A stretch of DNA of 26,731 nt from a virus (IMGVR_UViG_3300020417_000426:1-26731), one strand, 5' to 3'. Shown: positions 10,688 through 25,327, counted from the stretch's first letter. Made by a program: numbers and translations. Notes: generated by a model from the letters alone, not told the origin.

Positions 10688-11452
10688 ATGAATAAATACG
10701 AAATAAGATATAAAAAAATATTAAAAGAATGTTTATATAAAGGCGAGTTACAAAAAACAAGAACAAAATATAAAGCTTATGCAGTTTATAATAAGCACTT
10801 AAAAATAAATATAAATAAATACTTTCCTATACTAACAAGTAAACATATAAGCCAAAAAATATTCGAAACAGAATTTGAATGGTTTATAAATGGCGAAACA
10901 AATATTAAAAGGTTTAAACAAAACAACATTGCAATATGGAATAGCTGGGCAAATGAAAATGGTGATTTAGGACCTGTTTATGGGCACCAATTAATTAATT
11001 ACAATAGTAAAGGTATAAATCAACTTAAAAACACGATAGAGGCTATTAAAACGCACCCAGAAAGCCGCAGGCACGTTATAAACTTATGGAATCCTCAACA
11101 ATTAGAAGATATGGCCTTACCACCTTGCTATTTATATTTTCAATTATACATAAGTAATGGCAAACTAAATATGACTATAATTCAGAGAAGTGCCGATCTG
11201 TTTTTAGGTGTGCCTTATGATATAGCTTTATATAGTTTATTATTATTATATATAGCAAAACAAACAAGCTATAAAGCCGGATATATATATATAAACTTTA
11301 TAAATGCACATATTTACGAAAATCAAATTAACCCTACATTAAGATATTTACAAAACAACATATTAAATCCTGTAAAATATTCATATAATAATAAATTAAA
11401 ACTTTATGATTATAAATCAGTTGAAAAAATAAAATGTAAAGTAGCTGTATAA
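10688..11452 (+). CDS. thyA: Thymidylate synthase, ThyA type
   Basis: 254 residues, near the usual ~264. It converts dUMP to dTMP using methylenetetrahydrofolate. Visible motifs are TRTK (Arg25 region) for phosphate, WFINGETNIKRF, WNSWANENGDLGPVYGHQ, ESRRHVINLWNP (Arg127, Arg128 from the dimer partner), the catalytic Cys147 in LPPCYLYFQLY, QRSADLFLGVPYD, and the substrate-contact HIYENQ. The C-terminus is KCKVAV, like the family's conserved terminal Ala-Val. It starts directly after the methyltransferase stop (TAAATG) and closes the early operon. Confidence 0.95.
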   Translation: MNKYEIRYKKILKECLYKGELQKTRTKYKAYAVYNKHLKININKYFPILTSKHISQKIFETEFEWFINGETNIKRFKQNNIAIWNSWANENGDLGPVYGHQLINYNSKGINQLKNTIEAIKTHPESRRHVINLWNPQQLEDMALPPCYLYFQLYISNGKLNMTIIQRSADLFLGVPYDIALYSLLLLYIAKQTSYKAGYIYINFINAHIYENQINPTLRYLQNNILNPVKYSYNNKLKLYDYKSVEKIKCKVAV

Positions 11453-11476
11453 AATTACAGACTAAATACGATATAT
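11451..11476 (+). promoter_or_regulatory. Late two-part box 1 (AAAAT-N13-CGATATAT) before terminase genes
   Basis: AAAAT at 11451-11455 (overlapping the thyA stop) and CGATATAT at 11469-11476, 13 nt apart. This is the one copy not adjacent to a start: the C lies 47 nt before the terS ATG. If a promoter, it would make a leader of about 35 nt carrying a palindrome at 11490-11503. Confidence 0.5.
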
Positions 11477-11489
11477 AGATATAAAGAAG

Positions 11490-11503
11490 ATTGATTAATC
11501 AAT
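11490..11503. promoter_or_regulatory. 14-bp palindrome in the terS leader
   Basis: ATTGATTAATCAAT is a perfect palindrome 13 nt before the terS ATG, between the replication and packaging blocks. It could be an operator, an RNA hairpin or a terminase recognition site. Such palindromes also arise by chance in AT-rich DNA. Confidence 0.28.
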
Positions 11504-11515
11504 GTTTTTTCAATT

Positions 11516-11764
11516 ATGGATAAAAGAATAAATAACGGAGGTAAAAGAATAGGTGCCGGCCGAAAACCAAAGGCACAAGAAAAAGATCTTATAGAAAAGC
11601 TTGATTTAATAATAGACAATAAACAAGTTATAGAAAAACTAAAAGTATTAATTGATAAAGGAGACATAAGGGCTTTAAATTTATATATGGGCTATAGATA
11701 TGGCAAGCCTAAAGAAACAAAAGATATTCATATTAACGATGACCAACCAATATTCATTGACTAA
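11516..11764 (+). CDS. terS: Terminase small subunit (TerS)
   Basis: 82 residues. N-terminal GGKRIGAGRKPK (about 8-19), a basic Gly/Arg/Pro-rich motif common at the start of phage TerS and related DNA-binding proteins, then a helical region (LIEKLDLIIDNKQVIEKLKVL) and the segment RALNLYMGYRYGKPKETKD that precedes terminase large subunits in many phages. It would bind the packaging site and bring TerL to the DNA. Its stop overlaps the TerL ATG (TAATG). Shorter than usual TerS, so the HTH may be minimal. Confidence 0.82.
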   Translation: MDKRINNGGKRIGAGRKPKAQEKDLIEKLDLIIDNKQVIEKLKVLIDKGDIRALNLYMGYRYGKPKETKDIHINDDQPIFID

Positions 11765-12930
11765 TGTTTACTAAGACTACGGCTCTTACAAAACTTAGAT
11801 CATTAAATCAAAGAACAAAAATAATTAGAGGTGGAAGTTCGGCGGGTAAAACTATTGCGGTTTTATTAATACTTATTGATTACGCTTGTAGAAATTCGCA
11901 TAAAGAAATAAGTGTTGTAGCGGAATCAGTACCACATTTGCGTAGAGGTGCTTTAAAAGATTTTTTAAATATAATGAAAACCTTAAATAGGTACGATGAA
12001 AGAAAGTTCAATAGAAGTATCTTAAAATACGAATTCAGCAACTATAGCTATATAGAGTTCTTTAGCACAGACCAGCCTGATAAACTAAGAGGTGCAAGGA
12101 GAACAGACTTATTTATTAACGAGTGTAACAATATTAGCTTTGAAGCATACCAACAATTAGCAGTAAGAACATCAGGTAATATATGGCTTGATTATAATCC
12201 TACTAATTTGTTTTGGGTAGATAAAGAATTGATAGGCCAAGAGGATACAGACTTCCTTACGCTAACATACAAAGACAATAACAGTTTACCTACATCCATT
12301 GTAAAAGAAATAGAGAAAGCTAAAGTAAAAGCTAAAACATCTACATATTGGGCTAATTGGTGGAAAGTATATGGACTTGGAGAGATAGGTAGTTTAGAGG
12401 GTGCTTGTATTCCTGACTGGAAGTCTATTGACAAAATACCTGATGATGCTAGGCTTTTATGTGCAGGTCTTGACTTTGGTTATTCTGTTGATCCTACAAC
12501 TTACATAAGATTATATAAATGGAACAATGCTTATATATTTGATGAGCTTCTTTATAGAAAAGGTATGCTAAACAGAGACATAAGTAATTTCTTAACAGAC
12601 AATAGAGCTTTGGAACACATATACGCAGATAGTGCAGAGCCTAAGTCAATACAAGAGCTTAGAAACTATGGCCACAGAATATTCCCTGTAACAAAAGGCA
12701 GAGATTCAATAGTATATGGAATCAACCTTATAAATCAGAATGAGGTATATGTAACATCAAGGTCAAAGAATATGATAAGAGAATTGCAAGGGTATGTATG
12801 GGATAAAGACAAAGAGGGAAACAACATACAAAAACCTACAGGCTTACATCCTGACTGTATTGATGCAGCTCGATACTCATTAATGATGGCCTTACAAAAC
12901 CCAAACAAGGGTAAATATGCAATAAGATAA
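11764..12930 (+). CDS. terL: Terminase large subunit (TerL), ATPase-nuclease
   Basis: 388 residues, near the lower end for TerL. It pumps DNA into proheads and cuts the concatemer. The ATPase domain has IIRGGSSAGKT as Walker A (Lys29), DLFINEC as Walker B (115-121), and NPTN as a coupling-like motif. The RNase H-like nuclease domain has metal ligands in AGLDFGYSVDPT (Asp237), IYADSAEPKSI (Asp289) and HPDCIDAARY (Asp364/Asp367). No truncation or frameshift. The portal gene, which often follows terL, is instead at 25694, far downstream; a separate small cassette follows here. Confidence 0.95.
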   Translation: MFTKTTALTKLRSLNQRTKIIRGGSSAGKTIAVLLILIDYACRNSHKEISVVAESVPHLRRGALKDFLNIMKTLNRYDERKFNRSILKYEFSNYSYIEFFSTDQPDKLRGARRTDLFINECNNISFEAYQQLAVRTSGNIWLDYNPTNLFWVDKELIGQEDTDFLTLTYKDNNSLPTSIVKEIEKAKVKAKTSTYWANWWKVYGLGEIGSLEGACIPDWKSIDKIPDDARLLCAGLDFGYSVDPTTYIRLYKWNNAYIFDELLYRKGMLNRDISNFLTDNRALEHIYADSAEPKSIQELRNYGHRIFPVTKGRDSIVYGINLINQNEVYVTSRSKNMIRELQGYVWDKDKEGNNIQKPTGLHPDCIDAARYSLMMALQNPNKGKYAIR

Positions 12931-12970
12931 CAGAGGTAGATAAAAAAAAACTAAAACTTTTATTAAAAAA

Positions 12971-13003
12971 TGTTAATTATTCCAAAATAAAGTTGTAGAT
13001 TTG
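12971..13003 (+). promoter_or_regulatory. Probable host-type promoter of the moron-like cassette
   Basis: A perfect -7 box TAGATTTG (12996-13003) lies 25 nt after the start of TGTTAATTATT (12971), which falls where the -33 element should be; the same TGTTAATTATT occurs at the early promoter near 7728. The leader to the ATG at 13026 is 22 nt. Confidence 0.5.
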
Positions 13004-13025
13004 ATTATAATTAAAAACAAAACAA

Positions 13026-13385
13026 ATGAATATAAATACATTTACAGCAAAACCATCTGAACTTGAAAAAGTTAATGATTTGTATAAACAAACAGGAATA
13101 AGCAAAAAACTTCTTACTATACACAGTCTTGTTGATACTCTTTTACAAATTGATGAAATAATTAAAAGAGAAAGAAATTTTATTAAAAACAATGTTCTAT
13201 GTAGAAAACATCTTACAGAACAATATCAAATTGAGAAATATGAAAATCCTAACTCTACAAAAACAAAAGAGCTTGAATTAGATATTATGGATCAAGAATA
13301 TAGTTGTAATGAATCAAGAAAATTAATTTCATCATTAAAATTAGATTATAGTGAAACAAAACAAAAATTAAAGCAATTATTTTAA
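13026..13385 (+). CDS. Hypothetical coiled-coil protein of an autonomous cassette (moron-like)
   Basis: 119 residues, soluble and highly helical. Hydrophobic repeats run from ~8 to 50 (SELEKVNDLYKQTGISKKLL, IHSLVDTLLQIDEIIKRERN) and again from ~80 to 119 (ESRKLISSLKLDYSETKQKL). Two cysteines (Cys58, Cys93) only. I do not recognise a family. The gene stands alone with its own host-type promoter and a strong terminator downstream, and it interrupts the terminase-to-tail gene order. This is the layout of a moron, expressed independently of the late programme. Confidence 0.6.
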   Translation: MNINTFTAKPSELEKVNDLYKQTGISKKLLTIHSLVDTLLQIDEIIKRERNFIKNNVLCRKHLTEQYQIEKYENPNSTKTKELELDIMDQEYSCNESRKLISSLKLDYSETKQKLKQLF

Positions 13386-13390
13386 AAAGA

Positions 13391-13477
13391 ATGGAAGACA
13401 TTAAATTTTTCATCAAAGCATTAATATTATCCACTTTCTTTTGGTTAGGAGTATGGTTACAATTAATGTACTTATAG
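13391..13477 (+). CDS. 28-residue single-helix membrane microprotein
   Basis: Starts 5 nt after the preceding stop: MEDIKFFIKALILSTFFWLG, continuing VWLQLMYL. Almost the whole peptide is one membrane helix with a charged N-terminus. The close spacing with the coiled-coil gene and the shared promoter and terminator suggest a two-gene cassette. It could be chance, since the peptide is short. Confidence 0.4.
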   Translation: MEDIKFFIKALILSTFFWLGVWLQLMYL

Positions 13478-13481
13478 AACA

Positions 13482-13551
13482 CATTGAGTTAATTAGTTAG
13501 TTGTTTAATTTAATTTAAATTGATTTAATTTAGTTTTTTACAAACTCAATG
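13482..13551 (+). ncRNA. Possible structured RNA element before the terminator
   Basis: A perfect 9-bp inverted repeat, CATTGAGTT (13482-13490) and AACTCAATG (13543-13551), closes a loop of about 52 nt made of repeats of TTTAATT-type sequence including the palindrome AATTTAAATT. It sits between the microprotein stop and the terminator hairpin 2 nt downstream. The outer stem, A/T-rich interior and terminator fit a small RNA or a long 3' UTR structure. Confidence 0.38.
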
Positions 13552-13553
13552 AT

Positions 13554-13584
13554 AGGAGGTCTCAAAAGGGCCTCCTTTTTTTTT
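13554..13584 (+). terminator. Strong intrinsic terminator ending the moron-like cassette
   Basis: Stem AGGAGGTC (13554-13561) with GGCCTCCT (13569-13576), including one T-G pair, loop TCAAAAG, followed by an unbroken T run. It separates the cassette from the late tail operon, whose two-part box begins 5 nt later. Confidence 0.88.
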
Positions 13585-13588
13585 GTCA

Positions 13589-13614
13589 AAAATCCACTTT
13601 AGATTTCGATATAT
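13589..13614 (+). promoter_or_regulatory. Late two-part box 2 (AAAAT-N13-CGATATAT) before the tail operon
   Basis: AAAAT at 13589-13593 and CGATATAT at 13607-13614, 13 nt apart, immediately after the terminator; the C is 12 nt before the ATG at 13619. A restart of transcription is needed here, which argues that the box is a promoter. Confidence 0.58.
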
Positions 13615-13618
13615 ATAT

Positions 13619-14269
13619 ATGAGAGTAAAAATTAGTGTACCTAATGACTTGTCAGAAATCAAACTATGGCAGTATCAGAAGTTCTTAGAAATACAAAAAC
13701 AGAATAGTGATGAAAACTTTTTAGCAAGTAAAATGATAGAGATATTCTGTGGTATAGAACTTAAAGAGGCCTATAAAATGAAAGCTAAAGATGTTCATAG
13801 AATCACAGGAATACTTGCAGATATGTTTGAACAAAAGCCTGTACTTATAAACAGATTTTATCTAAATAATATTGAGTATGGTTTTATACCAAACTTAGAT
13901 GATATGACTTTAGGAGAGTATGTTGATCTTGATACTTACTTGCCAAAATGGGAAGAGATAGAAAAGGCTATGGCAGTATTGTACAGGCCAATAACAAAGA
14001 CATATAAAGGTAAATATCAAATAGAAGATTATACAGCTGAAGGTCAAGATGCTTATAAAGATATGCCTATGAGTATAGTCTTTGGTGCTATGTTTTTTTT
14101 TTATCGTTTAGGGATAGACTTGTCAAAGATTATGACATTTTATTTGGAACAGAACAAGGACATTCACTCACAGCTCTCTCACAGTTTGGGCAAAAATGGG
14201 GATGGTATCAATCAATTTATGCACTCTCTCAAGGAGATATTAGAAGATTTGAGAATATCACTGAATTAA
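13619..14269 (+). CDS. Tail assembly chaperone-like protein, 0-frame product
   Basis: 216 residues from ATG 13619; the TTG 36 nt upstream lies inside the terminator T run and is rejected. Landmarks are LWQYQKFLEIQ, IEIFCGIELKEAYKM, GFIPNLDDMTLGEYVDLDTYL, EKAMAVLYRPIT and MPMSIVFGAMFFFYRLG, a pattern I associate with a conserved Bacteroidota-phage family at the start of tail operons. The end is GKNGDGINQFMHSLKEILEDL. The last 79 nt also encode protein in the -1 frame, and the gene has two candidate slippery sites: T10 at 14093-14102 and TTTGGGC at 14185-14191. By analogy with lambda gpG/gpGT this is probably the short chaperone form; the function is inferred. Confidence 0.72.
   Translation: MRVKISVPNDLSEIKLWQYQKFLEIQKQNSDENFLASKMIEIFCGIELKEAYKMKAKDVHRITGILADMFEQKPVLINRFYLNNIEYGFIPNLDDMTLGEYVDLDTYLPKWEEIEKAMAVLYRPITKTYKGKYQIEDYTAEGQDAYKDMPMSIVFGAMFFFYRLGIDLSKIMTFYLEQNKDIHSQLSHSLGKNGDGINQFMHSLKEILEDLRISLN
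14185..14191 (+). other. Candidate -1 ribosomal frameshift site (TTTGGGC)
   Basis: TTTGGGC fits XXXYYYZ and is in the required phase: the 0 frame reads T TTG GGC. After a -1 slip the next codons are CAA AAA TGG GGA TGG, entering the protein-like -1 frame. No strong downstream hairpin was found by eye. Confidence 0.55.
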
Positions 14270-14355
14270 ATGTACATAAATGTTTAACAATGCTAACCTT
14301 TATGAAAGAAAAAAGCGACTTAGAATCGAAACAAATAAAAAGTAAAATGAGATGA
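14191..14355 (+). CDS. -1-frame extension of the tail chaperone (probable frameshift product domain)
   Basis: Read in the -1 frame, this encodes QKWGWYQSIYALSQGDIRRF, then ENITELNVHKCLTMLTFMKE and KSDLESKQIKSKMR, a well-formed helical sequence. The frame is open from 14059 but has no ATG, GTG or TTG before the WGWYQS part, so a frameshift from the 0-frame gene is the simplest way to reach it. Its TGA overlaps the next gene's ATG (ATGA), the same coupling used elsewhere in this phage. A slip at 14185-14191 would make a fusion of about 245 residues. The first 79 nt are dual-coding. Confidence 0.68.
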   Translation, partial: QKWGWYQSIYALSQGDIRRFENITELNVHKCLTMLTFMKEKSDLESKQIKSKMR

Positions 14356-14822
14356 GCAATCAAGGTATAAGAGGTTTTTACCAAGTTACAGATACAATAA
14401 AAACAAACTTACTAAGTGATAGTAATGTAAACTCTGTAACAACTGGTGATATAACACAAATAGATTTAAACAAGCAAACAATATTTCCTCTAGCACATAT
14501 TATAGTAAATAGTGTTATAGCTCAAGAACAAACATTGTCATTCAATATAACAATTATGGCAATGGATGTTGTAAACGAATACAAAGATGCAGAGACAGAT
14601 ATATTTGTTGGCAACAACAATGAGCAAGATATACTCAATACTCAATTAGCTGTATTGAACAGAATCATACTTCTGCTTAGAGGTGGCTCGTTATATACAA
14701 CAAAATATCAATTAGAGGGCGATCCTACTTGTGAGCCTTTTTATGAAAGGTTTGAAAACAGATTAGCTGGATGGGCAGCAACAATGGATATATTAATAGA
14801 TAATGATATAAGTAGTTGCTAA
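14352..14822 (+). CDS. Tail terminator/neck-like structural protein
   Basis: 156 residues. Notable stretches are GFYQVTDTIKTNLLSDSNVNSVTTGD, DLNKQTIFPLAHIIVN, MAMDVVNEYKDAETDIF, NNEQDILNTQLAVLNRII and EPFYERFENRLAGWAATMDI. This is a pattern I associate with Bacteroidota-phage tail-completion proteins that follow the chaperone gene; size and place match tail terminators, which cap the tail tube and join it to the head. No catalytic motif. Flanked by ATGA and TAATG overlaps. Confidence 0.62.
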   Translation: MSNQGIRGFYQVTDTIKTNLLSDSNVNSVTTGDITQIDLNKQTIFPLAHIIVNSVIAQEQTLSFNITIMAMDVVNEYKDAETDIFVGNNNEQDILNTQLAVLNRIILLLRGGSLYTTKYQLEGDPTCEPFYERFENRLAGWAATMDILIDNDISSC

Positions 14823-15322
14823 TGGAGTTACAAGATACAAGAGACATATTAAATAGTTTTGCAAAGTATGTAGTTCAGCAATCACGAAGCAACCTTACAA
14901 AGGGCAAGAAAAATGTTTCTAAGGCCTTATATAATTCTCTTGATTATAAAATACTATCTGATAATTCAGGATTTATTTTACAATTCTTAATGGAGGAATA
15001 TGGAGCTTATCAAGATCAGGGTGTTTCAGGTACAAAGAAAAAATATAACACTCCTTTTAAATATACAAACAAAAGGCCACCATCATCAGCATTTGATAAA
15101 TGGTCAGTAAGAAAAGGTATAGCACCAAGACAAGAGGGAGGTAGATTCGCAAAGAGAAAAGGTTTAAACTTTGCTATAGCTAAGACAATATTTGAGCAAG
15201 GTATAAGGCCAAGTTTATTTTTTACAAAACCTTTTGAAAAACGATTTAAAACTTTACCAAATGAACTAATAGCAGCATTTGTAAATGATGCAGAAAAAAC
15301 AATAGAAGATGGCAATATTTAA
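14822..15322 (+). CDS. HK97 gp10-like tail completion protein
   Basis: 166 residues from the ATG in TAATG; a TTG 6 nt upstream is not needed. Basic overall, with LNSFAKYVVQQSRSNL, SLDYKILSDNSGFILQFLMEEYGAYQDQGVSG, then SAFDKWSVRKGIAPRQ, LNFAIAKTIFEQGIRPSLFFTKPFEKRF, LPNELIAAFVNDAE. The arrangement of GAYQDQGVSG, the W-x-x-R-K-G-I segment and the F-F-T-K-P block resembles gp10-type head-tail joining or tail completion proteins. Assignment to the family is moderate. Confidence 0.6.
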   Translation: MELQDTRDILNSFAKYVVQQSRSNLTKGKKNVSKALYNSLDYKILSDNSGFILQFLMEEYGAYQDQGVSGTKKKYNTPFKYTNKRPPSSAFDKWSVRKGIAPRQEGGRFAKRKGLNFAIAKTIFEQGIRPSLFFTKPFEKRFKTLPNELIAAFVNDAEKTIEDGNI

Positions 15323-16427
15323 AGTAAACATAAACTCACCTGTATATATAAAAGTAGCAAATGCAAATTTAGCAGACTGTAATTTAGATATATCAATATT
15401 TAGTGGTACATACGATACAAGTCCAAGCCTTACTTATCAGCTTAGAAAGAACGAAGTGTCAAACAATAACTTTGTAATATTTGAAATAGGTGAGCTTATA
15501 AAAGACTACATTGAATACAGCTTTAGTGGAACATTTGGAAACAATGGCCTGAATGTTTGGGTCAAGACCGTAGCTACACCAAGAAACTCATCAGGAACAG
15601 CTCTTGATGCTATTACTACAAATATGTTAGCCTTTGATGGTGTAGGATATTTTGAGGATGGGTTTACAACAGAAACACAAACCAATAGTGCAACAACATT
15701 ATCTCTAAGTGCTTATAAAGGTAGCACAACAAAGCTAATGTCTAATGATACTATATTTAGAGAAAGTCAAGAGATTCTTAAGATTCCTGTATTAGCAAAC
15801 CTAAGTGTAAACTCAGGATCAGATACTTTGACTGGTGCAACTACTGTAAACTTTAAAAATGGTAGTTCGACAGTAACAAGTGTAACAGTAGGTACAGGCA
15901 TTGATACAACTAACACAGCAATAGAATATGCAACAAGTACAACAGCTACTTTGACAAGTGTAGATATAGTTACAGGAGGTAGTACAGAAACGATAAAAGT
16001 AGAGGAGCAGCATTGTGAGAAGTTTACAAATATGCCTGTTACATTTGTTAATAGATTTGGAGCTTTACAAAGAGTAAACTTTTTCTTAAAGTCTATAGAA
16101 AGTATTGACATAGAAAGAGAGGAGTATAAGGCCAATACACTAACAACAGGTGCGACATATTCTGTAAACAATCATCAATACAAGACCAGGAACATAATGG
16201 GTAGAGAAAAGATTATACTAAACACAGGATATGTAAATGATAGTTATAATCAAGTCATAGAGGAATTACTGATGTCTCCAAGATGTTGGTTATTCAAAGA
16301 CAATCAACAATTACCTATAATACCTCAAAATAAACAAGTTACTTTTAAAACTAGCTTAAATGATAGATTAGCTAACTATACTCTTGAATTTAAGTTCGCA
16401 TACGATAAACTAAATACTATTAGATAA
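15309..16427 (+). CDS. Tail tip/baseplate structural protein
   Basis: 372 residues. N-terminal part (FKVNINSPVYIKVANAN, FVIFEIGELIKDYIEYSF) and C-terminal part (NRFGALQRVNFFLKSIESID, RNIMGREKIILNTGYV, LMSPRCWLFKDNQQLPIIPQ) resemble a baseplate or distal-tail family I have seen in Bacteroidota phages. Between them (about residues 140-240) lies a Thr/Ser/Val-rich beta region (TLTGATTVNFKNGSSTV), possibly an Ig-like insertion. It overlaps the upstream gene by 14 nt. No enzymatic motif. Virion location is inferred from context. Confidence 0.6.
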   Translation: MAIFKVNINSPVYIKVANANLADCNLDISIFSGTYDTSPSLTYQLRKNEVSNNNFVIFEIGELIKDYIEYSFSGTFGNNGLNVWVKTVATPRNSSGTALDAITTNMLAFDGVGYFEDGFTTETQTNSATTLSLSAYKGSTTKLMSNDTIFRESQEILKIPVLANLSVNSGSDTLTGATTVNFKNGSSTVTSVTVGTGIDTTNTAIEYATSTTATLTSVDIVTGGSTETIKVEEQHCEKFTNMPVTFVNRFGALQRVNFFLKSIESIDIEREEYKANTLTTGATYSVNNHQYKTRNIMGREKIILNTGYVNDSYNQVIEELLMSPRCWLFKDNQQLPIIPQNKQVTFKTSLNDRLANYTLEFKFAYDKLNTIR

Positions 16428-19012
16428 TGAATCAAGTAGGCCTTGCGATACCGAGTATTCTTTTAGATAGTCCTGACCCAAATCCTGATATTTGGAATTT
16501 GACAGAAACTTTGTGGGAGAATACATTTAGAAAATGGAATGAGATAAATCTTATTACTGATATAAACTTTCAGCATTTAGATTTATTTGAGGATGAACAA
16601 ATCACACTTACGCAAACGATTCAAGACATAAGAGACATAGAAAAAGTATTTACTGACTTTAGTAGGACATTTAATTTACCGGCAACAAGTGTAAATAATA
16701 AATTATTCAAACATTACTACAGAAGAGACTTAGTATCAGATGCAATACCTGATGGTATATTTGATGCAAACTCAAAATTAGATGCAATATTAGAATTAAA
16801 CTACAAACCTTTCAAAGCAGGTTATATTGTAATGAATGGTGTCAAACTAAAAAACAATGTACCTGAAAGTTATAATATTACTTTCTATGGTCAAACAATA
16901 CAACTTAAAGATAGGGTACAAGATAGAAAACTAAGTAGCTTAGACTTTTCTCAATTTAATCACGATTACAATGTTACAAGAGTAAAGCAGGGATTAGAAA
17001 GTTTTGTATCTGTTTTGAATGGCCAAACAGTATCAGTACCTCACATAATATATCCTTTAATATCACATACACAAAGATTCATATATGATAGTACAGCAGG
17101 TGGTGTATTGACAACACAAGCAAGAAGCGATACAACAAGAAACTTATATGCAAGTGGAAGCCAAGCTGATTCAGGCTCAGGTAATACAGAAAGATTAGGA
17201 ACAACAAAAGGTTTTCAATTTACAGACCTAAAACCTGCATTAAGAATTATAGATATAATAAAAGTTATAGAGCAAGACAATGAAATAGATATAAACTTTA
17301 CAGATGACTTTTTTAAAACAACAGGCTTCTTTTCAAATCTCTATATGTGGTTACACAGAAACAAAGGAGAGATAGGAGTAACACCTACAAATGAAACAAA
17401 TACAAATCTAATTGTAGTAGATAAAATACAAAGTTTTACAGGCGATGTCATAGAGTTTTTTGATAGTGATACTACTCAAGACCCACCACATAGTTTTACA
17501 GGTATTGCACCTGTGTTTGATGGTGGTGTATTTAGATTCGCTACAGGCCTTACAAGTCAAACAAGTTTTGATGATAAGGAATCAATGAAAATCAAGTGGA
17601 CAGTAACGCCAAGTGTAAACACTAAAAATTTTACAGCTAGGCTTAGAAAAGCAGGTACTAACGAAGTCATTGCTGAACTCGCACATACTTCAGGAACAAC
17701 AAACACTATTCTTGAATTTGAATTTGAAACAAGTCTTGCAACAACTGTAGAAAATCACAATGTAGAGTTTGTTATAGAAACTACAGAAACATCTTTGAAT
17801 TTAACTTATGGTCTTACTTGTACTAAAATATTAGAGCAAGTAGGTACAGGTACACAAAACTTAGCTATACAAGCAGGTACAATAAGTCCTGATTCTGTTG
17901 TTGATACTATATATATATCAGACCAAATACCTGATATGAAAATATTAAACTTTTTGACAGGCCTATTCAAAACATTTAACTTAACTGCATTTGTAGATAA
18001 TGATGTATCGAGTAGTACATTTAGTCAAATCAAAGTACAAACACTCGATAGTTTTTATGCAAGTGGTACAACTAGAGATATAACTGAATTTGTAAACATT
18101 GAGGAGGGAGAATCTAATTTTAGTGTTCCCTTTAACGATATAGGTTTTAGTTTTGAAGAGCCTAAATCATTTGCAGCTTTTTATTACAACAAACTCAATT
18201 CAAGAGAATACGGATCAGTAAAAGCGAGTGATGCAAGTAATAGTGGTAGAGACCCAAGATTAAATAGAGGCCAAGACTATATTATAAAAACACCATACGA
18301 AAAGATGTTATTTGAAAGACTGAAAAATGTAAATGGAGGTGCAGATACTAATATTGGTTTTGGATATTTTGTTGATGACAACCAAAGTCCTACAATCGGA
18401 AACCCTTTACTATTCTATAAAAAAAGCACGAGTGTAAGTGGCACACCTATACAGATGTTTAATGGAGGAGGCACAGGAACACCTGCAAGTATAAGCACAA
18501 TAAATAGAGCTACAAACTTTCAAGAGGGTACAGCAAGTGTATTTTTAGCAGTATCAGGTGAGCCAAGCTCTATATCATTTAGTTATTTAGATGGCAACAA
18601 TGCACCACAAACAGTTACAGTAGCAAATGGTGCAAACACTACAATCAATCCTGTAATAAAAAATAGTGTAATTATAACAAGCAATGTTGATGATCCTGGT
18701 AATGTTACAATAACATATACTGTTTCATCAGATAGTCAAACACTTAATTTTAGTAGAGAGGTGAATCCTTTTGTTACAGGTCAGATAGATGACAATACTT
18801 TATTTAAAAAATATTATAGTGATTACATAAGTGATTTATTTAGCTATAACAGAAGATTAGTAAAAGTTAAGGCCATATTACCACAGAGTTTTTTATTACA
18901 ATATAAATTAAGTGATACACTTATTATAAGTAATGAAGCATTTATAATAAACAAAATAACTACAAACCTACAGACAGGTGAGAGTAGTTTAGAATTATTG
19001 AACAAGTTATGA
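16427..19012 (+). CDS. Large tail-associated protein (tail tip/host contact)
   Basis: 861 residues. N-terminal third includes DIRDIEKVFTDFSRTFNLPATSVNNKLFKHYYRRDL, VPESYNITFYGQTIQLKDRVQDRKLSSLDF and LKPALRIIDIIKVIEQDNEIDINF, fitting the large minor tail proteins that follow the distal tail gene in Bacteroidota phages. The middle is Thr/Ser-rich beta structure, and a segment around residues 680-780 (SGEPSSISFSYLDGNNAPQT) reads like Ig-type carbohydrate-binding repeats. The C-terminus (LFSYNRRLVKVKAILPQSFL, then ITTNLQTGESSLELLNKL) looks like the end of a baseplate hub. Probably sits at the tail tip. Its ATG overlaps the previous stop. Confidence 0.6.
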   Translation: MNQVGLAIPSILLDSPDPNPDIWNLTETLWENTFRKWNEINLITDINFQHLDLFEDEQITLTQTIQDIRDIEKVFTDFSRTFNLPATSVNNKLFKHYYRRDLVSDAIPDGIFDANSKLDAILELNYKPFKAGYIVMNGVKLKNNVPESYNITFYGQTIQLKDRVQDRKLSSLDFSQFNHDYNVTRVKQGLESFVSVLNGQTVSVPHIIYPLISHTQRFIYDSTAGGVLTTQARSDTTRNLYASGSQADSGSGNTERLGTTKGFQFTDLKPALRIIDIIKVIEQDNEIDINFTDDFFKTTGFFSNLYMWLHRNKGEIGVTPTNETNTNLIVVDKIQSFTGDVIEFFDSDTTQDPPHSFTGIAPVFDGGVFRFATGLTSQTSFDDKESMKIKWTVTPSVNTKNFTARLRKAGTNEVIAELAHTSGTTNTILEFEFETSLATTVENHNVEFVIETTETSLNLTYGLTCTKILEQVGTGTQNLAIQAGTISPDSVVDTIYISDQIPDMKILNFLTGLFKTFNLTAFVDNDVSSSTFSQIKVQTLDSFYASGTTRDITEFVNIEEGESNFSVPFNDIGFSFEEPKSFAAFYYNKLNSREYGSVKASDASNSGRDPRLNRGQDYIIKTPYEKMLFERLKNVNGGADTNIGFGYFVDDNQSPTIGNPLLFYKKSTSVSGTPIQMFNGGGTGTPASISTINRATNFQEGTASVFLAVSGEPSSISFSYLDGNNAPQTVTVANGANTTINPVIKNSVIITSNVDDPGNVTITYTVSSDSQTLNFSREVNPFVTGQIDDNTLFKKYYSDYISDLFSYNRRLVKVKAILPQSFLLQYKLSDTLIISNEAFIINKITTNLQTGESSLELLNKL

Positions 19013-19155
19013 TACAAAGTATATTACAATTATTAGAGTTCGCAAATGGTGAAACTGAGAATATCAGAATAGCACAAGGTAAGTATGAGTTGCCAAAAAC
19101 TTTTACAAGAACATTCAAACAAATTAAAAATGAAATAAAATGGCAAAACAAATAG
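19009..19155 (+). CDS. 48-residue ORF between the tail-tip and tape-measure genes
   Basis: Begins MIQSILQLLEFANGETENIR with an ATGA overlap of the upstream stop, and ends in TRTFKQIKNEIKWQNK, running 16 nt into the tape-measure gene. It fills the only gap between two long virion genes, so translation is likely. Helical, soluble, unknown. Confidence 0.55.
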   Translation: MIQSILQLLEFANGETENIRIAQGKYELPKTFTRTFKQIKNEIKWQNK

Positions 19156-20855
19156 TAGTAGATTTCACAGTCAAAACTGGTGCTGCAACAAGAGAGGTAT
19201 CTGATTTAAAAAAAGAGATACAAAATGTTAACAAAGAAGCAGTCAAAGGCTCAGAAAAAACTGAACAAGGCCTTAAAGGTATAGAGAAAGCAAGTGATAA
19301 GGCATCAAGTGGTATAGGCAGAATTGGTACAGCTTTTAAGGCACTTGGTATAGGTTTATTAATTGGTGCTTTTGCAAAATTTACAGAAGTCTTAAATTCA
19401 AATCAAAGAGTTGCAGATTTTTTTGCTACTACCTTTGAAACTGTAAGAATTGTTTTTAACGATTTTATAAATTTAGTATTAGACAATGTTGGTGGTGTAG
19501 CTGATTCCTTTAAACAAATATTTTCTGTAGAGGGTATAAAGAATTTTGGAAAATCACTTTTTGAAAATGTAATTGAAAGATTTAGATCAATGTTAGATGC
19601 AATAGGGTTTGTTGGTACAGCTATAAGAAAAGTATTTGAGGGAGATTTCAAAGGTGCAGCAGAAAGTGCTAAAAATGCTGGTAAAGAATTATTTGATGTA
19701 ATAACAGGTGTTGATAATAGTTTTGATAAAACAATAGAAACAGTTACTAAAGTTGCAGAAGCGACAACTAAATATGCAACTGAAACAGTAAAGACAGCAA
19801 CAGCTAATGTAAAACTTGCCAACTCAGCTCAATTATTAAATGCAGAAAATCAAGGCCTCATTGAAAAATACGATGTACAAGCAGAACAGCAAAGACAGTT
19901 AAGAGATGACACCTCTTTAAGCATAGAAGAAAGAATAGCTGCTAATAAAAGGCTTGGAGAAATATTAGATGAACAATCTGAAGTAATGCAAAAAAATGCA
20001 CAAGTAGCAGTTGATGCAGCTAGGGCAGCTTTAAAAGGTAATGAAGATAATATCGAATTACAAACTGCTTTACAAGAAGCTCTAAATGAACAAGCAGCAA
20101 TACAAGCAAGAGTTACAGGCCAAAGAAGTGAACAGCTCACAAATGAAAATGCTTTGCTTGATGAACAAAAAGAACTAAACAAAGAATTAGCTTTAATAGG
20201 AAAAACAGAAAGAGAAATAGAACTTATAGAATTAGAACAAGCTCTTGCAGATAAAAAAGCGTTAATAGAAAAAGAGGTTACTAATGAAGAAGAAAAAAAT
20301 AGATTATTGTTAGCAGCTCAAGATGACTTTAATAAAAAGAAAGAGGCACTTGATAAAGAAAGTGGAAAAGAAGAAGTAAAAATAACTGAGCTTACTCAAG
20401 AGGCAAAACTTGCTATAATATCAGGTGCTTTAGGTGGACTTGCAAATTTAGCAGGTGAGAATAGCAAATTCGGTAAAGGAGTAGCTGTTGCACAAGCAAT
20501 CATTGATACTTTTGCAGGAGCAAACAAAGCTCTTGCACAAGGCGGTATATTTGGTGCTGTTGCAGCAGCAGGAGTTATAGCATCAGGACTTGCTAATGTT
20601 AGAACTATTTTATCAACAAAGACACCTGACGCACCAAGTGGTACAGGAGCAGGTGGTGGACGATCTTTTAGTTCAGGAGGCGCAGCTCCACAAGCACCAT
20701 CATTTAATATAGTGGGTGCTGATACACAAAATCAATTAGCACAGACTTTAGCAGAACAAACACAAAAACCTGTGAAAGCATTTGTAGTATCAGGAGATGT
20801 AACAACAGCACAAAGTTTAGATAGAAACATAATTAGAGAAAGTGCTATAGGATAA
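19140..20855 (+). CDS. Tail tape measure protein
   Basis: 571 residues. The N-terminal third is helical with coiled-coil repeats (TREVSDLKKEIQNVNKEAVK, KGIEKASDKASSGIG) and a hydrophobic membrane-like segment (FKALGIGLLIGAFAKF, ~67-82). The centre (~230-430) is a long Gln/Glu/Ala/Leu-rich coiled coil, and the C-terminus is Gly/Ala-rich (AIIDTFAGANKALAQGGIFG, AAAAGVIASGLANV) with a Gly/Ser linker. This composition is typical of tape measures. Using the rule of ~0.15 nm per residue, the tail would be near 85 nm, short for a siphovirus. It has no recognisable peptidoglycan hydrolase motif. Confidence 0.85.
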   Translation: MAKQIVVDFTVKTGAATREVSDLKKEIQNVNKEAVKGSEKTEQGLKGIEKASDKASSGIGRIGTAFKALGIGLLIGAFAKFTEVLNSNQRVADFFATTFETVRIVFNDFINLVLDNVGGVADSFKQIFSVEGIKNFGKSLFENVIERFRSMLDAIGFVGTAIRKVFEGDFKGAAESAKNAGKELFDVITGVDNSFDKTIETVTKVAEATTKYATETVKTATANVKLANSAQLLNAENQGLIEKYDVQAEQQRQLRDDTSLSIEERIAANKRLGEILDEQSEVMQKNAQVAVDAARAALKGNEDNIELQTALQEALNEQAAIQARVTGQRSEQLTNENALLDEQKELNKELALIGKTEREIELIELEQALADKKALIEKEVTNEEEKNRLLLAAQDDFNKKKEALDKESGKEEVKITELTQEAKLAIISGALGGLANLAGENSKFGKGVAVAQAIIDTFAGANKALAQGGIFGAVAAAGVIASGLANVRTILSTKTPDAPSGTGAGGGRSFSSGGAAPQAPSFNIVGADTQNQLAQTLAEQTQKPVKAFVVSGDVTTAQSLDRNIIRESAIG

Positions 20856-20857
20856 GC

Positions 20858-20883
20858 AAAATAATTAATTAAAAACGATATAT
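20858..20883 (+). promoter_or_regulatory. Late two-part box 3 (AAAAT-N13-CGATATAT) before the prohead protease
   Basis: AAAAT (20858-20862) starts 3 nt after the tape-measure stop and is 13 nt from CGATATAT (20876-20883). The C is exactly 12 nt before the protease ATG. The whole 32-nt gap between the genes is occupied by the motif and its flanks. Confidence 0.55.
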
Positions 20884-20887
20884 TATT

Positions 20888-22510
20888 ATGAAGATAGTTG
20901 AATTAATTTTAGACGATAACGAAGATTTAACTGGCATAGAAGCTATTAGTATAGTTGAGAATCCTGCAATAGAGGAGGACTTCATAGCACTAAAAGGTGA
21001 ACAACAATTACAATTAGCAGAGGTAGATAAAGAGAAAAGAATTTTATTGGGAGCTTTACTTGTACCAAACAAACCTATCTACAGAAAAAGTGGTGAAGAT
21101 GAATATTATATATACTTCTCACGAGATACAGTACGAAAGGCCTCCCAAATTTATTTACAGAAAGGAAACCAAAACAACTCTACATTAGAACATAAACACT
21201 CATTAAAAGGTTTATCACTTGTAGAATCTTGGATAGTAGAGGATTCTAAAAAAGACAAAACAGCATTATATGGTCTTGAATATCCAGTAGGTACTTGGGT
21301 AGGTGCAGTAAAAGTAAACAATGAACAAGTATGGCAAGAGTTCGTAAAAACAGGTAAAGTCAAAGGATTTAGTATCGAGGGTTACTTTGCAGATAAAGCA
21401 GAAAGACCTAAAGACCCTACAATTAACGATCTTGCACAAATTGAAGAAGAAGAAGCGCAGGAGCTGCTTTCACAAGTCAGAGGCATTATTAGAAACGACC
21501 AAAGATATAAGGCAGGAAAAAAAATAATAATGGAATCATATTCTGATTATCCAAGTGGTGTTAAGAACAATGCAAAGAGAGGTATTGAACTAAACAAAAA
21601 AGTAAACAATAAATGTGCTACTGATGTTGGTAAGATTAGAGCTCAACAATTAGCACAAGGTAAACCAATAAGCAAGGAGACCATTAAAAGAATGTACTCT
21701 TTCTTATCACGCGCTGAGGAATACTATAAGCCTAATGACAAAGAGGCTTGTGGTACAATTTCATATTTATTGTGGGGAGGTCTTGCGGCAAAAAGATATT
21801 CAAAAAGAAAACTAAAAGAGCTCGGAGAAATAGAATTGTATAGTGAAAAAGTAAATGATGACTTTGCAATAATTAATGATAGATTAGGTTATTCTACAAG
21901 AGAAATGGCTGAAAAGATAGCAAAGGATATAGGATGTGATGGAATACACCAACACGATTTTGAAAATCAAATTTGGTATATGCCTTGTGAAAAACACGCG
22001 CTATCAGAAGAAGAGTTTAAAAAATATAAATGTCCAAAGGGCTACTATAAAGATTATCAGAAACACAAATGCGTGAAAAGAGATAATTATGCAGAAATAG
22101 GGCCAAGAGGAGGTATTAGAAAAAGTCCAAAAGCACCAAAGTCAAGTACACCAAATCCAAGTCCAAAAGGTAAAGGTACAGCTAAAGGAGATGCTTCAAC
22201 AAGCAGGGGGGCAAAGGTCTCACAAAAAGATTTAGCTTCTTTACAAAAAAAGTCAGATGACTTTAATGAGAGATATAAAAAGAAACTTGGTTATGGTGTA
22301 ACAGTTGGACAGTTAAAAGCAGTATTTCAAAGAGGCTTAGGCGCGTTTAACACAAGTCATAGTCCTCGAATAAAATCTCCTACAGCTTGGGCACAGGCAC
22401 GAGTAAATGCTTACTTATACTTAGTAAGAAATGGTAGACCACAAAATCCTAAGTACACAGGAGACTTTGATTTACTACCAAAAAAACATCCTAAAAGCAA
22501 TAAAAAATGA
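20888..22510 (+). CDS. Prohead protease (XkdF/Peptidase_S78_2) fused to two extra C-terminal domains
   Basis: 540 residues, about three times the size of a bare protease. Domain 1 (~1-172) is an XkdF-like serine protease: ISIVENPAIEEDFIAL, LGALLVPNKPIYRK, EHKHSLKGLSLVESWIVE with His102/104, and KGFSIEGYF with Ser162. It should process the scaffold and capsid proteins during maturation. Domain 2 (~218-312) has NAKRGIELNKK, CATDVGKIRAQQLAQGKPIS, RMYSFLSRAEEYY and ACGTISYLLWGGLAA, a module I have seen in Bacteroidota-phage head proteins. A Lys/Ser/Pro linker (~405-440) leads to domain 3 (~450-535), DUF5824-like: VGQLKAVFQRGLGAFNTSHSP, AWAQARVNAYLYLV. Whether the fusion self-cleaves is unknown. 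Confidence 0.83.
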   Translation: MKIVELILDDNEDLTGIEAISIVENPAIEEDFIALKGEQQLQLAEVDKEKRILLGALLVPNKPIYRKSGEDEYYIYFSRDTVRKASQIYLQKGNQNNSTLEHKHSLKGLSLVESWIVEDSKKDKTALYGLEYPVGTWVGAVKVNNEQVWQEFVKTGKVKGFSIEGYFADKAERPKDPTINDLAQIEEEEAQELLSQVRGIIRNDQRYKAGKKIIMESYSDYPSGVKNNAKRGIELNKKVNNKCATDVGKIRAQQLAQGKPISKETIKRMYSFLSRAEEYYKPNDKEACGTISYLLWGGLAAKRYSKRKLKELGEIELYSEKVNDDFAIINDRLGYSTREMAEKIAKDIGCDGIHQHDFENQIWYMPCEKHALSEEEFKKYKCPKGYYKDYQKHKCVKRDNYAEIGPRGGIRKSPKAPKSSTPNPSPKGKGTAKGDASTSRGAKVSQKDLASLQKKSDDFNERYKKKLGYGVTVGQLKAVFQRGLGAFNTSHSPRIKSPTAWAQARVNAYLYLVRNGRPQNPKYTGDFDLLPKKHPKSNKK

Positions 22511-22656
22511 AAAAAAAAAATTACATACCTAGCTATACAAGTCCAAAAGGCGGGAGACGAGCTTGTTTATGTAAAGACGAATTGACTTACAAAATTGAGT
22601 GTTGTACTGGAGAGCTACACGCACAAGGCATAGGTCAAATAACAAGAAGCAGTTAA
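22507..22656 (+). CDS. 49-residue cysteine-rich small structural-region protein
   Basis: Begins with MKKKNYIPSYTSPKGGRRAC and continues LCKDELTYKIECCTGELHAQ, then GIGQITRSS. The pattern CLCKD...ECCTGELxAQGIG is distinctive and matches small proteins I recall beside the capsid genes of Bacteroidota phages. Four cysteines in CLC and CC could bind a metal. It starts in an ATGA overlap with the protease gene, so it is co-expressed with head proteins. Confidence 0.7.
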   Translation: MKKKNYIPSYTSPKGGRRACLCKDELTYKIECCTGELHAQGIGQITRSS

Positions 22657-22662
22657 AAATGC

Positions 22663-22688
22663 AAAATTAATTTAAAAAAGCGATATAT
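22663..22688 (+). promoter_or_regulatory. Late two-part box 4 (AAAAT-N13-CGATATAT) before the scaffold-like gene
   Basis: AAAAT at 22663-22667 and CGATATAT at 22681-22688, 13 nt apart; the C is 12 nt before the ATG at 22693. The box would give the scaffold and capsid genes an extra entry point for RNA polymerase. Confidence 0.55.
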
Positions 22689-22692
22689 AATT

Positions 22693-23289
22693 ATGAAAGC
22701 TACAGAAATGATAAAACAAGTAAAAAATCTCTTAGGTGTTGAGCTATCTGATATTCAATTAGCTGAACTCAAATTAGAGAACGGAACTGTTTTAGAAGCA
22801 GATGCTTTTGAATCAGGCAAAGAGGTCTTTATTAAAACTGAAGACGAAAATGTTGCTCTACCTGTCGGAGAGTACGAACTAGAAGATAATCGTTTGTTAG
22901 TTGTCGAAGAAGAGGGAGTGATTAAAGAAATTAAAGCTCAAGAAGAAGAAGAAAAGGAAGAAGACAAAGAAGAAATGAGATATGTGACTAGAGAGGAGTT
23001 CAGAAAAGAAATGGACGAACTTAAAGATATGGTTGAAAAAATGATGTCTCCAAAAGACAAAGAGGAAATGTCATCACATATTCAAGAGGAAGTATCTTTA
23101 GCAGTTACAGAAGTTTTAAATAGCGAAGCGAAAGAAAAAGAAATTCTAAAAGAAGAATTATCTCAACCTGCTGCAGAGCCTTTAAAGCATAATCCTGAAG
23201 AAAAGAAAAGCAACTTAAAAGTTAAGTTTGCTCAAAACAGGACAAAATCTACTCTAGATAGAGTAATGGAAACTATAAGTAATAAATAA
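22693..23289 (+). CDS. Scaffold-like capsid assembly protein
   Basis: 198 residues. The N-terminal ~75 residues form a compact beta-type domain (LELENGTVLEADAFESGKEV-like pattern: LKLENGTVLEADAFESGKEV, VFIKTEDENVALPVGEYELED, LLVVEEEGVIKEI). From ~78 to 150 it is highly acidic and coiled-coil (EEEEKEEDKEE, REEFRKEMDELKDMVEKM), and the C-terminus is basic (NLKVKFAQNRTKSTLDRVM). The long charged helix, the position right before the decoration and capsid genes, and the protease upstream fit a scaffold. A basic terminal peptide is typical for binding capsid protein. Confidence 0.72.
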   Translation: MKATEMIKQVKNLLGVELSDIQLAELKLENGTVLEADAFESGKEVFIKTEDENVALPVGEYELEDNRLLVVEEEGVIKEIKAQEEEEKEEDKEEMRYVTREEFRKEMDELKDMVEKMMSPKDKEEMSSHIQEEVSLAVTEVLNSEAKEKEILKEELSQPAAEPLKHNPEEKKSNLKVKFAQNRTKSTLDRVMETISNK

Positions 23290-23303
23290 ATAAATATAAA
23301 ATT

Positions 23304-23723
23304 ATGGCAGTATTAACGCATATAAATAACGATGTCGTAAGAATTAAAAACGATGTTGATTCAGTATCAGCAGCAGTTACATTGACTGCAGCAGATAGTG
23401 GAAAATGGTACGAACTTGCAGCAAGTGCAGGTGTAACGGTAACATTACCGTCAGTTGAATCAGGACTACATTTTAGATTTGTTGTAGCAAATGCTTTTGA
23501 TACATCAAACTATATCATTGATAGTGCAGAGGGAGACAATATAGATGGTATTTTAGTAGTTAATGGAGCAAGTGTTGCAGCTTCAGGAGAAGACCAAATT
23601 AACTTTGTAGCATCAGCAGAATCAGTAGGAGACTTTATTGATATTTGGTCTGATGGTAACAAATGGTATGTTTGGGGAATCGGAAACGCAGCAGGGTCAA
23701 TTACAGCTACTGATCCAAGTTAA
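23304..23723 (+). CDS. Decoration/head fibre-like protein
   Basis: 139 residues, beta-rich and with no long helix: MAVLTHINNDVVRIKNDVDS, VTLTAADSGKWYELAASAGVTVTLPS, GLHFRFVVANAF, EGDNIDGILVVNGASVA, DIWSDGNKWYVWGIGNAAG. The periodic W-Y-hydrophobic strands and the small size, just before the major capsid gene, suggest a decoration or cement protein bound to the capsid surface. Head-fibre or baseplate alternatives cannot be excluded. It has the leader AAAATTATGG. Confidence 0.6.
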   Translation: MAVLTHINNDVVRIKNDVDSVSAAVTLTAADSGKWYELAASAGVTVTLPSVESGLHFRFVVANAFDTSNYIIDSAEGDNIDGILVVNGASVAASGEDQINFVASAESVGDFIDIWSDGNKWYVWGIGNAAGSITATDPS

Positions 23724-23752
23724 TAATTAATTAAATAAATAAATAGAAAGAT

Positions 23753-24649
23753 ATGGCGACTACAACTTCGATAACTACTACTTATGCAGGTGAGTTTGCT
23801 GGTGAATATATAGCAGCAGCTTTATTAAGTGGTGTAACATTATCACAAGGTGGGGTTACAATTAAACCCAATATTAAATTTAAAGAAGTAATCAAGAAAA
23901 TGGCGTTGGATAGTATCTTAAAAGATGCTTCTTGCGACTTTGACCCTACTTCAACTGTAACATTAACTGAGAGAATCCTACAACCTGAGGAATTTCAAGT
24001 GAATTTACAACTATGTAAAAAAGATTTCAGACAAGACTGGGATGCTCAATCAATGGGTTTCAGTCAGTATGACAATCTACCAAAAAGATTTTCTGACTTT
24101 TTAATTGCACAAGTTGCAGCTAAAGTAGCACAGAAAGTTGAGCAAAACATTTGGAACGGAGCAACTGCTAATGCAGGAGAGTTTGACGGATTTAAAACGT
24201 TATTACTTGCTGACGGAGACGTTGTAGATGTTTCAGGTACTACATTATCAGCTTCAAACATTATTGCAGAATTAGGAAAAGTAGTTGATGCTATTCCAAG
24301 TGCAGTATATTCAAAAGAAGATGTTAAGATTTACCTACCAACAAGTGCAGCAAAATTCTACATTCAAGCTCAAGCAGCTTTAGGATATAGAGAATTGTAT
24401 CACGTTGGACAAACTGAAATGAACTTTCAAGGTGTTCCATTATTCACAGCTCCAGGCCTAGCGGCTGATACAATGGTAGCTGCTGAAGCATCAAACTTAT
24501 TCTTTGGGACAGGTCTATTAAACGACTGGCAAGAAGTTAAGTTAATTGATATGGCTGACATTGACGGAAGTCAAAATGTAAGAGTAGTATTAAGAGGAAG
24601 TGCAGGAGTACAACACGGAATTGGCTCTGACATTGTATTATACTCGTAA
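23753..24649 (+). CDS. Major capsid protein (HK97-fold likely)
   Basis: 298 residues. Abundant-protein composition (Ala, Gly, Val, Thr rich, few rare residues). Family-like pieces are PNIKFKEVIKKM, LQPEEFQVNLQLCKKDFRQDWDAQ, LIAQVAAKVAQKVEQNIWNGATAN (the spine helix), AIPSAVYSKEDVKIYLPTSA and the C-terminal GTGLLNDWQEVKLIDMADIDGSQNVRVVLRGSAGVQHGIG. This layout matches HK97-like capsid proteins of Bacteroidota phages, without a separate delta domain. A strong terminator follows directly. The start is the ATG in AGATATGGC. Confidence 0.85.
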   Translation: MATTTSITTTYAGEFAGEYIAAALLSGVTLSQGGVTIKPNIKFKEVIKKMALDSILKDASCDFDPTSTVTLTERILQPEEFQVNLQLCKKDFRQDWDAQSMGFSQYDNLPKRFSDFLIAQVAAKVAQKVEQNIWNGATANAGEFDGFKTLLLADGDVVDVSGTTLSASNIIAELGKVVDAIPSAVYSKEDVKIYLPTSAAKFYIQAQAALGYRELYHVGQTEMNFQGVPLFTAPGLAADTMVAAEASNLFFGTGLLNDWQEVKLIDMADIDGSQNVRVVLRGSAGVQHGIGSDIVLYS

Positions 24650-24668
24650 TAATGTTTAACATAAAAAG

Positions 24669-24703
24669 GGTAGGTGGGTATGAGCCTACTTACCTTTTTT
24701 TTT
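24669..24703 (+). terminator. Intrinsic terminator after the major capsid gene
   Basis: A 10-bp stem, GGTAGGTGGG (24669-24678) with CCTACTTACC (24685-24694), two G-T pairs, loop TATGAG, followed by nine T residues. It would limit read-through from the highly expressed capsid gene into the tail-tube gene 15 nt downstream. Confidence 0.87.
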
Positions 24704-24717
24704 AAAAAAATAAAAAT

Positions 24718-25242
24718 ATGGCTTGTAATATAACAAACGGAAGAAGTTTAGCTTGTAAATCAGGTGTAGGTGGATTAAGATATGTTTTCTTTTCTAACTA
24801 CAGCAACGCAACAAGAGATTTAGCAATAGCTGGAGATGGCTCTGTTACTCTTGATGGCTCTGTAGATTTTTACAGATACGATTTAAAAGGTAATTCATCT
24901 TTAGAAACAGCCATAAACTCTTCAAGAGAAAATGGAACAACTTTTTACGAAAGCACTTTAAATCTTACATTACAATTTTTAGATAAGGCTACACAAGAGC
25001 AAATTAAATTACTTGCTCACGGTAGGCCACAAGTTGTAGTTGTTGATTATAACGGTAATGCTTTCTTATTAGGTAAAGAACACGGATGCGAGGTTAGTGG
25101 CGGCTCTATGGTTTCGGGAGCAGGAATGGCAGACTTGTCAGGATTTACATTAGTATTGACTGCACAAGAAACTAATCCACCATTTTTCTGTGCAGCAGCA
25201 CCATCAGATGATGCTACTTCACCTATTGATCCTAACGCATAA
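24718..25242 (+). CDS. Major tail (tube) protein-like
   Basis: 174 residues, beta-rich: NITNGRSLACKSGVGGLRYVF at the N-terminus, then LAIAGDGSVTLDGSVDFYRYDLKGNSSLETAINSSRENGTTFYESTLNLTLQFLDKATQEQIK (central strands and helix; landmarks given only as YRYDLKGNSSLE and FYESTLNLTLQF), RPQVVVVDYNGNAFLLGKEHGCEVSGGSMVSGAGMADLSGF and TLVLTAQETNPPFFC. The repeated T-L-N-L-T-L, S-G-G-S-M-V-S-G pattern fits tail tube proteins that polymerise around the tape measure. Transcribed after the capsid terminator, so probably by read-through or an unseen promoter. Medium confidence as no signature residue exists. Confidence 0.7.
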   Translation: MACNITNGRSLACKSGVGGLRYVFFSNYSNATRDLAIAGDGSVTLDGSVDFYRYDLKGNSSLETAINSSRENGTTFYESTLNLTLQFLDKATQEQIKLLAHGRPQVVVVDYNGNAFLLGKEHGCEVSGGSMVSGAGMADLSGFTLVLTAQETNPPFFCAAAPSDDATSPIDPNA

Positions 25243-25265
25243 AGAGTTATGGTTTATAAATTAAG

Positions 25266-25291
25266 GGAGGCTATACGCCTCCTTTTTTTTT
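25266..25291 (+). terminator. Intrinsic terminator after the tail-tube-like gene
   Basis: Stem GGAGGC (25266-25271) with GCCTCC (25277-25282), loop TATAC, then nine T residues. Another G-T pair extends the stem outward. Its GGAGG stem resembles the terminator at 13554. Confidence 0.88.
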
Positions 25292-25301
25292 ATATCTATA
25301 C

Positions 25302-25327
25302 AAAATAGCTTAATTATTTCGATATAT
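25302..25327 (+). promoter_or_regulatory. Late two-part box 5 (AAAAT-N13-CGATATAT) before the portal unit
   Basis: AAAAT at 25302-25306 and CGATATAT at 25320-25327, 13 nt apart; the C lies 12 nt before the ATG at 25332. It lies 10 nt after a terminator, like box 2. The flanks ATTTCGATATATA...ATATGA are almost identical to those at box 2. Confidence 0.58.

Follow-up and report, generated by a model that had tools for sequence, protein, structure and literature searches.

A two-part motif, AAAAT-N13-CGATATAT, recurs five times in the viral DNA analysed here (26,731 nucleotides, hereafter the window), and we consider it highly likely that this motif is a phage late promoter, read by the phage's own sigma factor on the host RNA polymerase core, with transcription beginning 12 nt past the C of CGATATAT. 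The original prediction had favoured a late promoter with very short leaders. This reading is now the best supported, and it can be sharpened to a predicted leader of zero nucleotides at four of the five sites.

At 26.7 kb and 31% G+C, the window is a piece of viral DNA that carries tailed-phage genes, and beyond 11.5 kb it encodes terminase, tail genes, an XkdF-like protease, a probable capsid protein and portal. All five copies of the motif lie within this terminase-to-portal block, and it is from gene content only that we infer the late expression of these genes. Given that the named terminases nearest to the window's TerL belong to Flavobacterium phages (48% identity), and that start codons in these phages lack Shine-Dalgarno sites (G at no more than 13% at each of positions -1 to -12 in genes without the motif), the host is likely to be a member of the Bacteroidota. 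Compared with bacterial genomes, TerL returned a single distant match, in a Chitinophagaceae MAG. Host-type TAHHTTTG words occur at similar frequency on either strand of the window. A small protein encoded at 9079-9492, with a DNA-binding region like DnaA domain IV, is present in most relatives, not all, and is possibly an origin binder. The features to which we refer below are as follows.

0.1-3.4 kb: tail fibre and lysis genes
3.8-11.5 kb: genes for NinG, SSB, a DnaB-like ATPase, the sigma factor, an exonuclease, a DnaA-domain protein and thymidylate synthase
6472-6957, plus strand: phage sigma factor of 161 aa, the proposed reader of the motif (region 2 at about residues 12-79, region 4 at about residues 115-159)
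7089-7325, plus strand: 78-aa protein with invariant H40, H46, C52 and C54, encoded near the sigma gene and present in 20 of 20 near-complete relatives
11451-11476, plus strand: P1 (terS), putative late promoter; AAAAT at 11451-11455, CGATATAT at 11469-11476, predicted start at A11481, 35-nt leader
11516-12930, plus strand: terS and terL, downstream of P1; terL assigned by Terminase_3/3C, terS by position and phrog_38011
13554-13576, plus strand: terminator-like hairpin with a T run, just before P2
13589-13614, plus strand: P2 (tail gene 13619), putative late promoter; boxes at 13589-13593 and 13607-13614, predicted start at the A of ATG 13619
20858-20883, plus strand: P3 (XkdF-like protease gene 20888), putative late promoter; boxes at 20858-20862 and 20876-20883, predicted start at the A of ATG 20888
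22663-22688, plus strand: P4 (gene 22693, head region), putative late promoter; boxes at 22663-22667 and 22681-22688, predicted start at the A of ATG 22693
25263-25285, plus strand: terminator-like hairpin with a T run, just before P5
25302-25327, plus strand: P5 (gene 25332, followed by portal), putative late promoter; boxes at 25302-25306 and 25320-25327, predicted start at the A of ATG 25332

A pattern scan of both strands of the window found the motif five times on the plus strand and not at all (0) on the minus strand, at each of the positions originally predicted. Dinucleotide shuffles of the window yielded a mean of 0.00 copies and a maximum of 0, and base composition alone leads to an expectation of 0.016 copies for both strands together, in keeping with the earlier hand estimate of far below one chance copy. 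Even the downstream word, CGATATAT, is confined in the window to the five motif copies. The spacing is as rigid as had been claimed: AAAAT begins 18 nt before the C of CGATATAT in all five copies, and this C lies 12 nt 5' of the ATG at 13619, 20888, 22693 and 25332, and 47 nt 5' of the terS ATG (11516). The strong terminators said to precede two of the copies correspond to the hairpins at 13554-13576 and 25263-25285.

Relatives were chosen from IMG/VR as TerL homologues, the motif playing no part in the choice. One group of them, set A, has CGATATA at the same spacing before the same five genes, namely terS, a tail gene, the gene for the XkdF-like protease, a downstream gene and the gene preceding portal. 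A second group, set B (TerL 82-84% identical), carries CGTTATA at the same five sites, 12 nt before the ATG, with the A-box one base closer than in set A. CGTTATA is also kept before the same genes in a third branch, whose terminase is different (TerL identity no higher than 31%). Across relatives, the terS site lies 33-53 nt from its ATG. The motif is not present before other structural genes, for example the probable capsid gene, and some sites are lost in the divergent genomes G041-G043.

Boxed CGATATA occurs 41 times in the forward and once in the reverse orientation in nine set A genomes, where boxed CGTTATA is absent (0), and eleven set B genomes hold 61 forward and 0 reverse copies of boxed CGTTATA and 0 of boxed CGATATA; many of these contigs were drawn from a small number of metagenome series, which makes them less than fully independent. 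Thus, the two outcomes on which the original prediction had staked itself in relatives, conservation ahead of the same genes and a scarcity of copies on the wrong strand, were both obtained. A one-base change at every site of a genome requires a single reader shared by all of them, and we interpret the concerted change from CGATATA to CGTTATA as the apparent trace of one DNA-binding factor co-evolving with its sites.

Some matches were set aside in this comparison. The L320-type phages were considered as a second, independent switch and then dropped, as their CGATATA matches lie inside genes and the word at their ATG sites is CGTTATA, and a recurrent CGTTATA match within the set B sigma gene was put down to coding (Ser-Leu-Tyr). 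In one contig, G008 (the 47,685-base IMG/VR contig of L071), the sigma gene and the late promoters are each present in two versions that differ; the contig looks like a fusion of two related phage genomes and is possibly an assembly chimera. Both phage sets also keep, in the terS leader (11476-11515 in the window), the palindrome ATTGATTAATCAAT with TTTTTTCAATT after it; this palindrome could serve for binding of TerS or a repressor, for packaging, or as a hairpin in the RNA.

The position of the RNA start is indicated by the bases around the ATG. In promoter genes, the base ahead of the ATG is a T in 64 of 64 cases, compared with 47% in other genes, and among the 74 sites with an ATG at a position other than +12, a YR step is found at +11/+12 in 71; many of the promoter sites share descent, and these counts are non-independent trials. 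In another branch, the ATG has shifted to +13 or +15 with T11 and R12 unchanged. The constraint therefore appears to fall on the RNA start and not on the codon. Given that the YR step is kept even where the ATG lies elsewhere, we place the start on the A of the ATG at four of the window's sites, where transcription probably begins with a zero-nt leader, and such starts would lead to leaderless or nearly leaderless late mRNAs. An RNA start at this base would put CGATAT at -12 to -7, its CG at -12/-11, and the A-box at -30 to -26. The -7 element of host promoters, TAHHTTTG, spans -12 to -5 and is followed by the start after 4-5 nt (PMC6847099); CGATATAT, which would likewise span -12 to -5 and leave 4 nt before the start, fits the same frame. 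The conserved sites carry CGATATAT or CGTTATA, not TAHHTTTG.

These observations also disfavour the alternative offered with the original prediction, that the motif serves as a signal for translation or RNA processing. A constant sequence context in the mRNA before the start codon would account for the constant 12 nt to the ATG at four of the five window sites, and might seem apt in phages from which Shine-Dalgarno sites are absent. Yet the fixed distance is to the YR step and not to the ATG, as the ATG positions at terS and in the branch with the shifted ATG attest; in addition, the probable capsid gene, among other structural genes, has no copy of the motif, and a one-base change of the -10 word at all sites together makes no sense in translation. 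We hold a translation signal to be very improbable. We attach just as little weight to an RNA-processing or operator site that is not a start site, which would suit the two copies that follow terminators and the presence of the terS-leader palindrome. Copies directly after terminators require a new transcription start there, however, the two boxes are asymmetric, and the distance from the palindrome to the promoter box differs between the two phage sets.

If the motif is a promoter, the sigma factor encoded at 6472-6957 is the best candidate for its reader. This ORF matches the sigma family phrog_1740 (E 2e-6), and its predicted structure (mean pLDDT 84) consists of two helical domains with a low-confidence linker. 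Only regions 2 and 4 are present, regions 1.1 and 3 being absent as in ECF (group 4) sigmas, and the best Foldseek matches are the ECF sigmas SigE, SigL and sigmaE in the PDB and phage Sigma70-ECF proteins among viral structures. Its score against Pfam Sigma70_r2 is 16 bits, below the cut-off of 24, and 7 of 21 members of the sigma family match this profile at E<=0.01 (best 1e-4). The -35 element of ECF promoters has an AAC core, with a spacer of about 15-17 nt. The motif is unlike such promoters in having AAAAT, not GGAAC, and a 13-nt spacer, and its distance from the A-box to the -10 word is ~3 bp shorter than in known ECF-type promoters. Because the protein falls below the Pfam cut-off and the upstream box is not the ECF consensus, we regard this sigma as ECF-like by predicted fold and assign it to no ECF group.

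All 20 near-complete relatives have the sigma gene, and outside the structural block the only genes common to these 20 are those for NinG, sigma and the 78-aa protein. Its domains have diverged unequally. Between sets, identity is 82% for the region 4 recognition helix and 34-51% for the region 2 helices and loop; within set A, the values are 85% and 67-76%. Conservation of region 4 thus parallels that of the A-box, and divergence of region 2 that of the -10 word, a pattern that points to sigma as the reader. Residues that fully separate the sets include 50, in the loop between two region 2 helices, as well as 68 and 74, which lie in a helix aligned with ECF region 2.3-2.4; in ECF sigmas, the flipped -11 base is selected by the L3 loop (PMC6372665). 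In a tree of the sigma proteins (n=46), with the L320 in-gene matches set aside, the A and B words are split by a single change, and since there is one change only, any co-inherited factor fits the tree equally well.

Two further observations concern the sigma gene itself. TTG is its start codon in every set A relative checked, and the overlap of this start with the stop codon of the helicase gene in the window suggests that translation of the two is coupled. The window and the relative G001 share helicase, TerL and capsid sequences that are 97-98% identical, and their sigma proteins are only ~49% identical; the sigma gene has been replaced while the promoter word remained unchanged.

A different reader acting at a late promoter deserves more consideration than the two alternatives above, although we judge it unlikely. 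It could be a host ECF sigma, or host sigma-A assisted by a phage activator at AAAAT; MotA of phage T4 is an activator that acts at -30. In favour of such a reader, AT-rich patches at -18 and -28 belong to F. johnsoniae host promoters (PMC6847099) and the A-box lies at -30 to -26, while NinG and the 78-aa protein are as universal as sigma. Host sigma-A alone would not be expected to read the -10 word, because CG at -12/-11 mismatches TAHHTTTG. Moreover, the change in the word tracks the phage sigma family, and the 78-aa protein matched no family, DNA-binding ones included, and no sequence or fold in structure and fold searches; this protein may possibly be a partner of sigma. No ORF of the size of a single-subunit RNA polymerase was seen apart from genes in tail or fibre positions, not all of which are named, and ORFs of at least 700 aa are few. 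The T7-type polymerase profile PF00940 had no match in 20 relatives and was likewise silent on the control.

With sigma as the reader, the proposed mechanism would run as follows. The phage sigma would be made along with the early genes and would be carried to the motif by the host RNA polymerase core, where region 4 may contact AAAAT and region 2 may read CGATAT. RNA synthesis would then start 12 nt after the C, on the A of the ATG at four sites, yielding leaderless late mRNAs, and at A11481 ahead of terS, yielding a 35-nt leader.

A search of phage records with the window sigma gave no sequence match at E 0.01, and so no cultured relative. Nonlabens phage P12024L (JQ823123), a marine flavobacterial phage whose protease and portal genes are related to those of the window, was reached through its protease gene. 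Its protein P12024L_35, annotated as Sigma-70 region 2, is a distant homologue of the window sigma (hhalign 97.5%) and only 23% identical to it. The -10 word of this phage, CGTTAATA, is unlike that of the window, and is found at 3019, 5400, 24759, 25999 and 27600, in each case 12 nt before the ATG of a structural-region gene, accompanied by a CAAA box at -18. A strict form of the pattern has four sites, compared with 0.02 in shuffles. The literature we searched held no earlier description of these promoters, and apparently there is none. In phages of the Flavobacterium FPSV-S2 type, the nearest cultured phages by TerL (48%), the system was absent from the half that was examined.

We think it reasonably probable, with less assurance than for the promoter itself, that marine Bacteroidota phages of a large, uncultured group use their own sigma and late promoters locked to start codons, with nearly all late units leaderless and with orthogonal sigma-promoter pairs whose -10 words lie one base apart (CGATAT, CGTTAT and, in P12024L, CGTTAA). 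If so, leaderless phage late mRNAs would be predicted in a phylum without Shine-Dalgarno sites, among host mRNAs that mostly have leaders (87% over 10 nt; PMC6847099), possibly as a phage-specific mode of late translation. This prediction can be tested in cultured P12024L on its Nonlabens/Persicivirga host. The motif offers a readable late-gene switch, together with its likely protein, for a wide group of uncultured marine phages, and could be used to annotate late units in metagenomic phages. Natural pairs that differ by one base should also help to clarify recognition of the -10 word by sigma region 2.

Late promoters served by a phage sigma are already known, and the system in the window would be of that kind: both a sigma-70 family protein and a shared element in one orientation before structural genes are found here. 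According to the portions of PMC8948821 on which we draw, phages 7-11 and phiEco32 each encode a sigma factor through which the host polymerase gains late promoters, with in vitro proof for 7-11. The 7-11 sigma, SaPh711_gp47, has late promoters of the form GTAAtg-(16)-aCTA, with starts 6-9 bp past the element. The resemblance to the window extends to the phage sigma with host core, the bipartite promoter before structural genes, and a promoter word that varies with sigma among related phages. Unlike the window, 7-11 has an enterobacterial host and a wider box spacing, and those portions of the source do not mention leaderless starts. In phiEco32, the phage-encoded sigma gp36 likewise drives late genes, from middle and late promoters tAATGTAtA; the same portions describe a single-element promoter and report no region 4 homology, whereas the window has two boxes and a conserved region 4 helix. 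Host Bacteroidota sigma-A promoters, TTTG / TANNTTTG, have their downstream element in the same register as the phage motif (-12 to -5, with 4-5 nt to the start) and differ from it in the bases of both boxes (PMC6847099). Our literature search found no paper describing this motif, and what is new relative to these systems is the boxes and their spacing, the fixed position of the promoter relative to the start codon, the change of one base throughout a genome and the occurrence in Bacteroidota.
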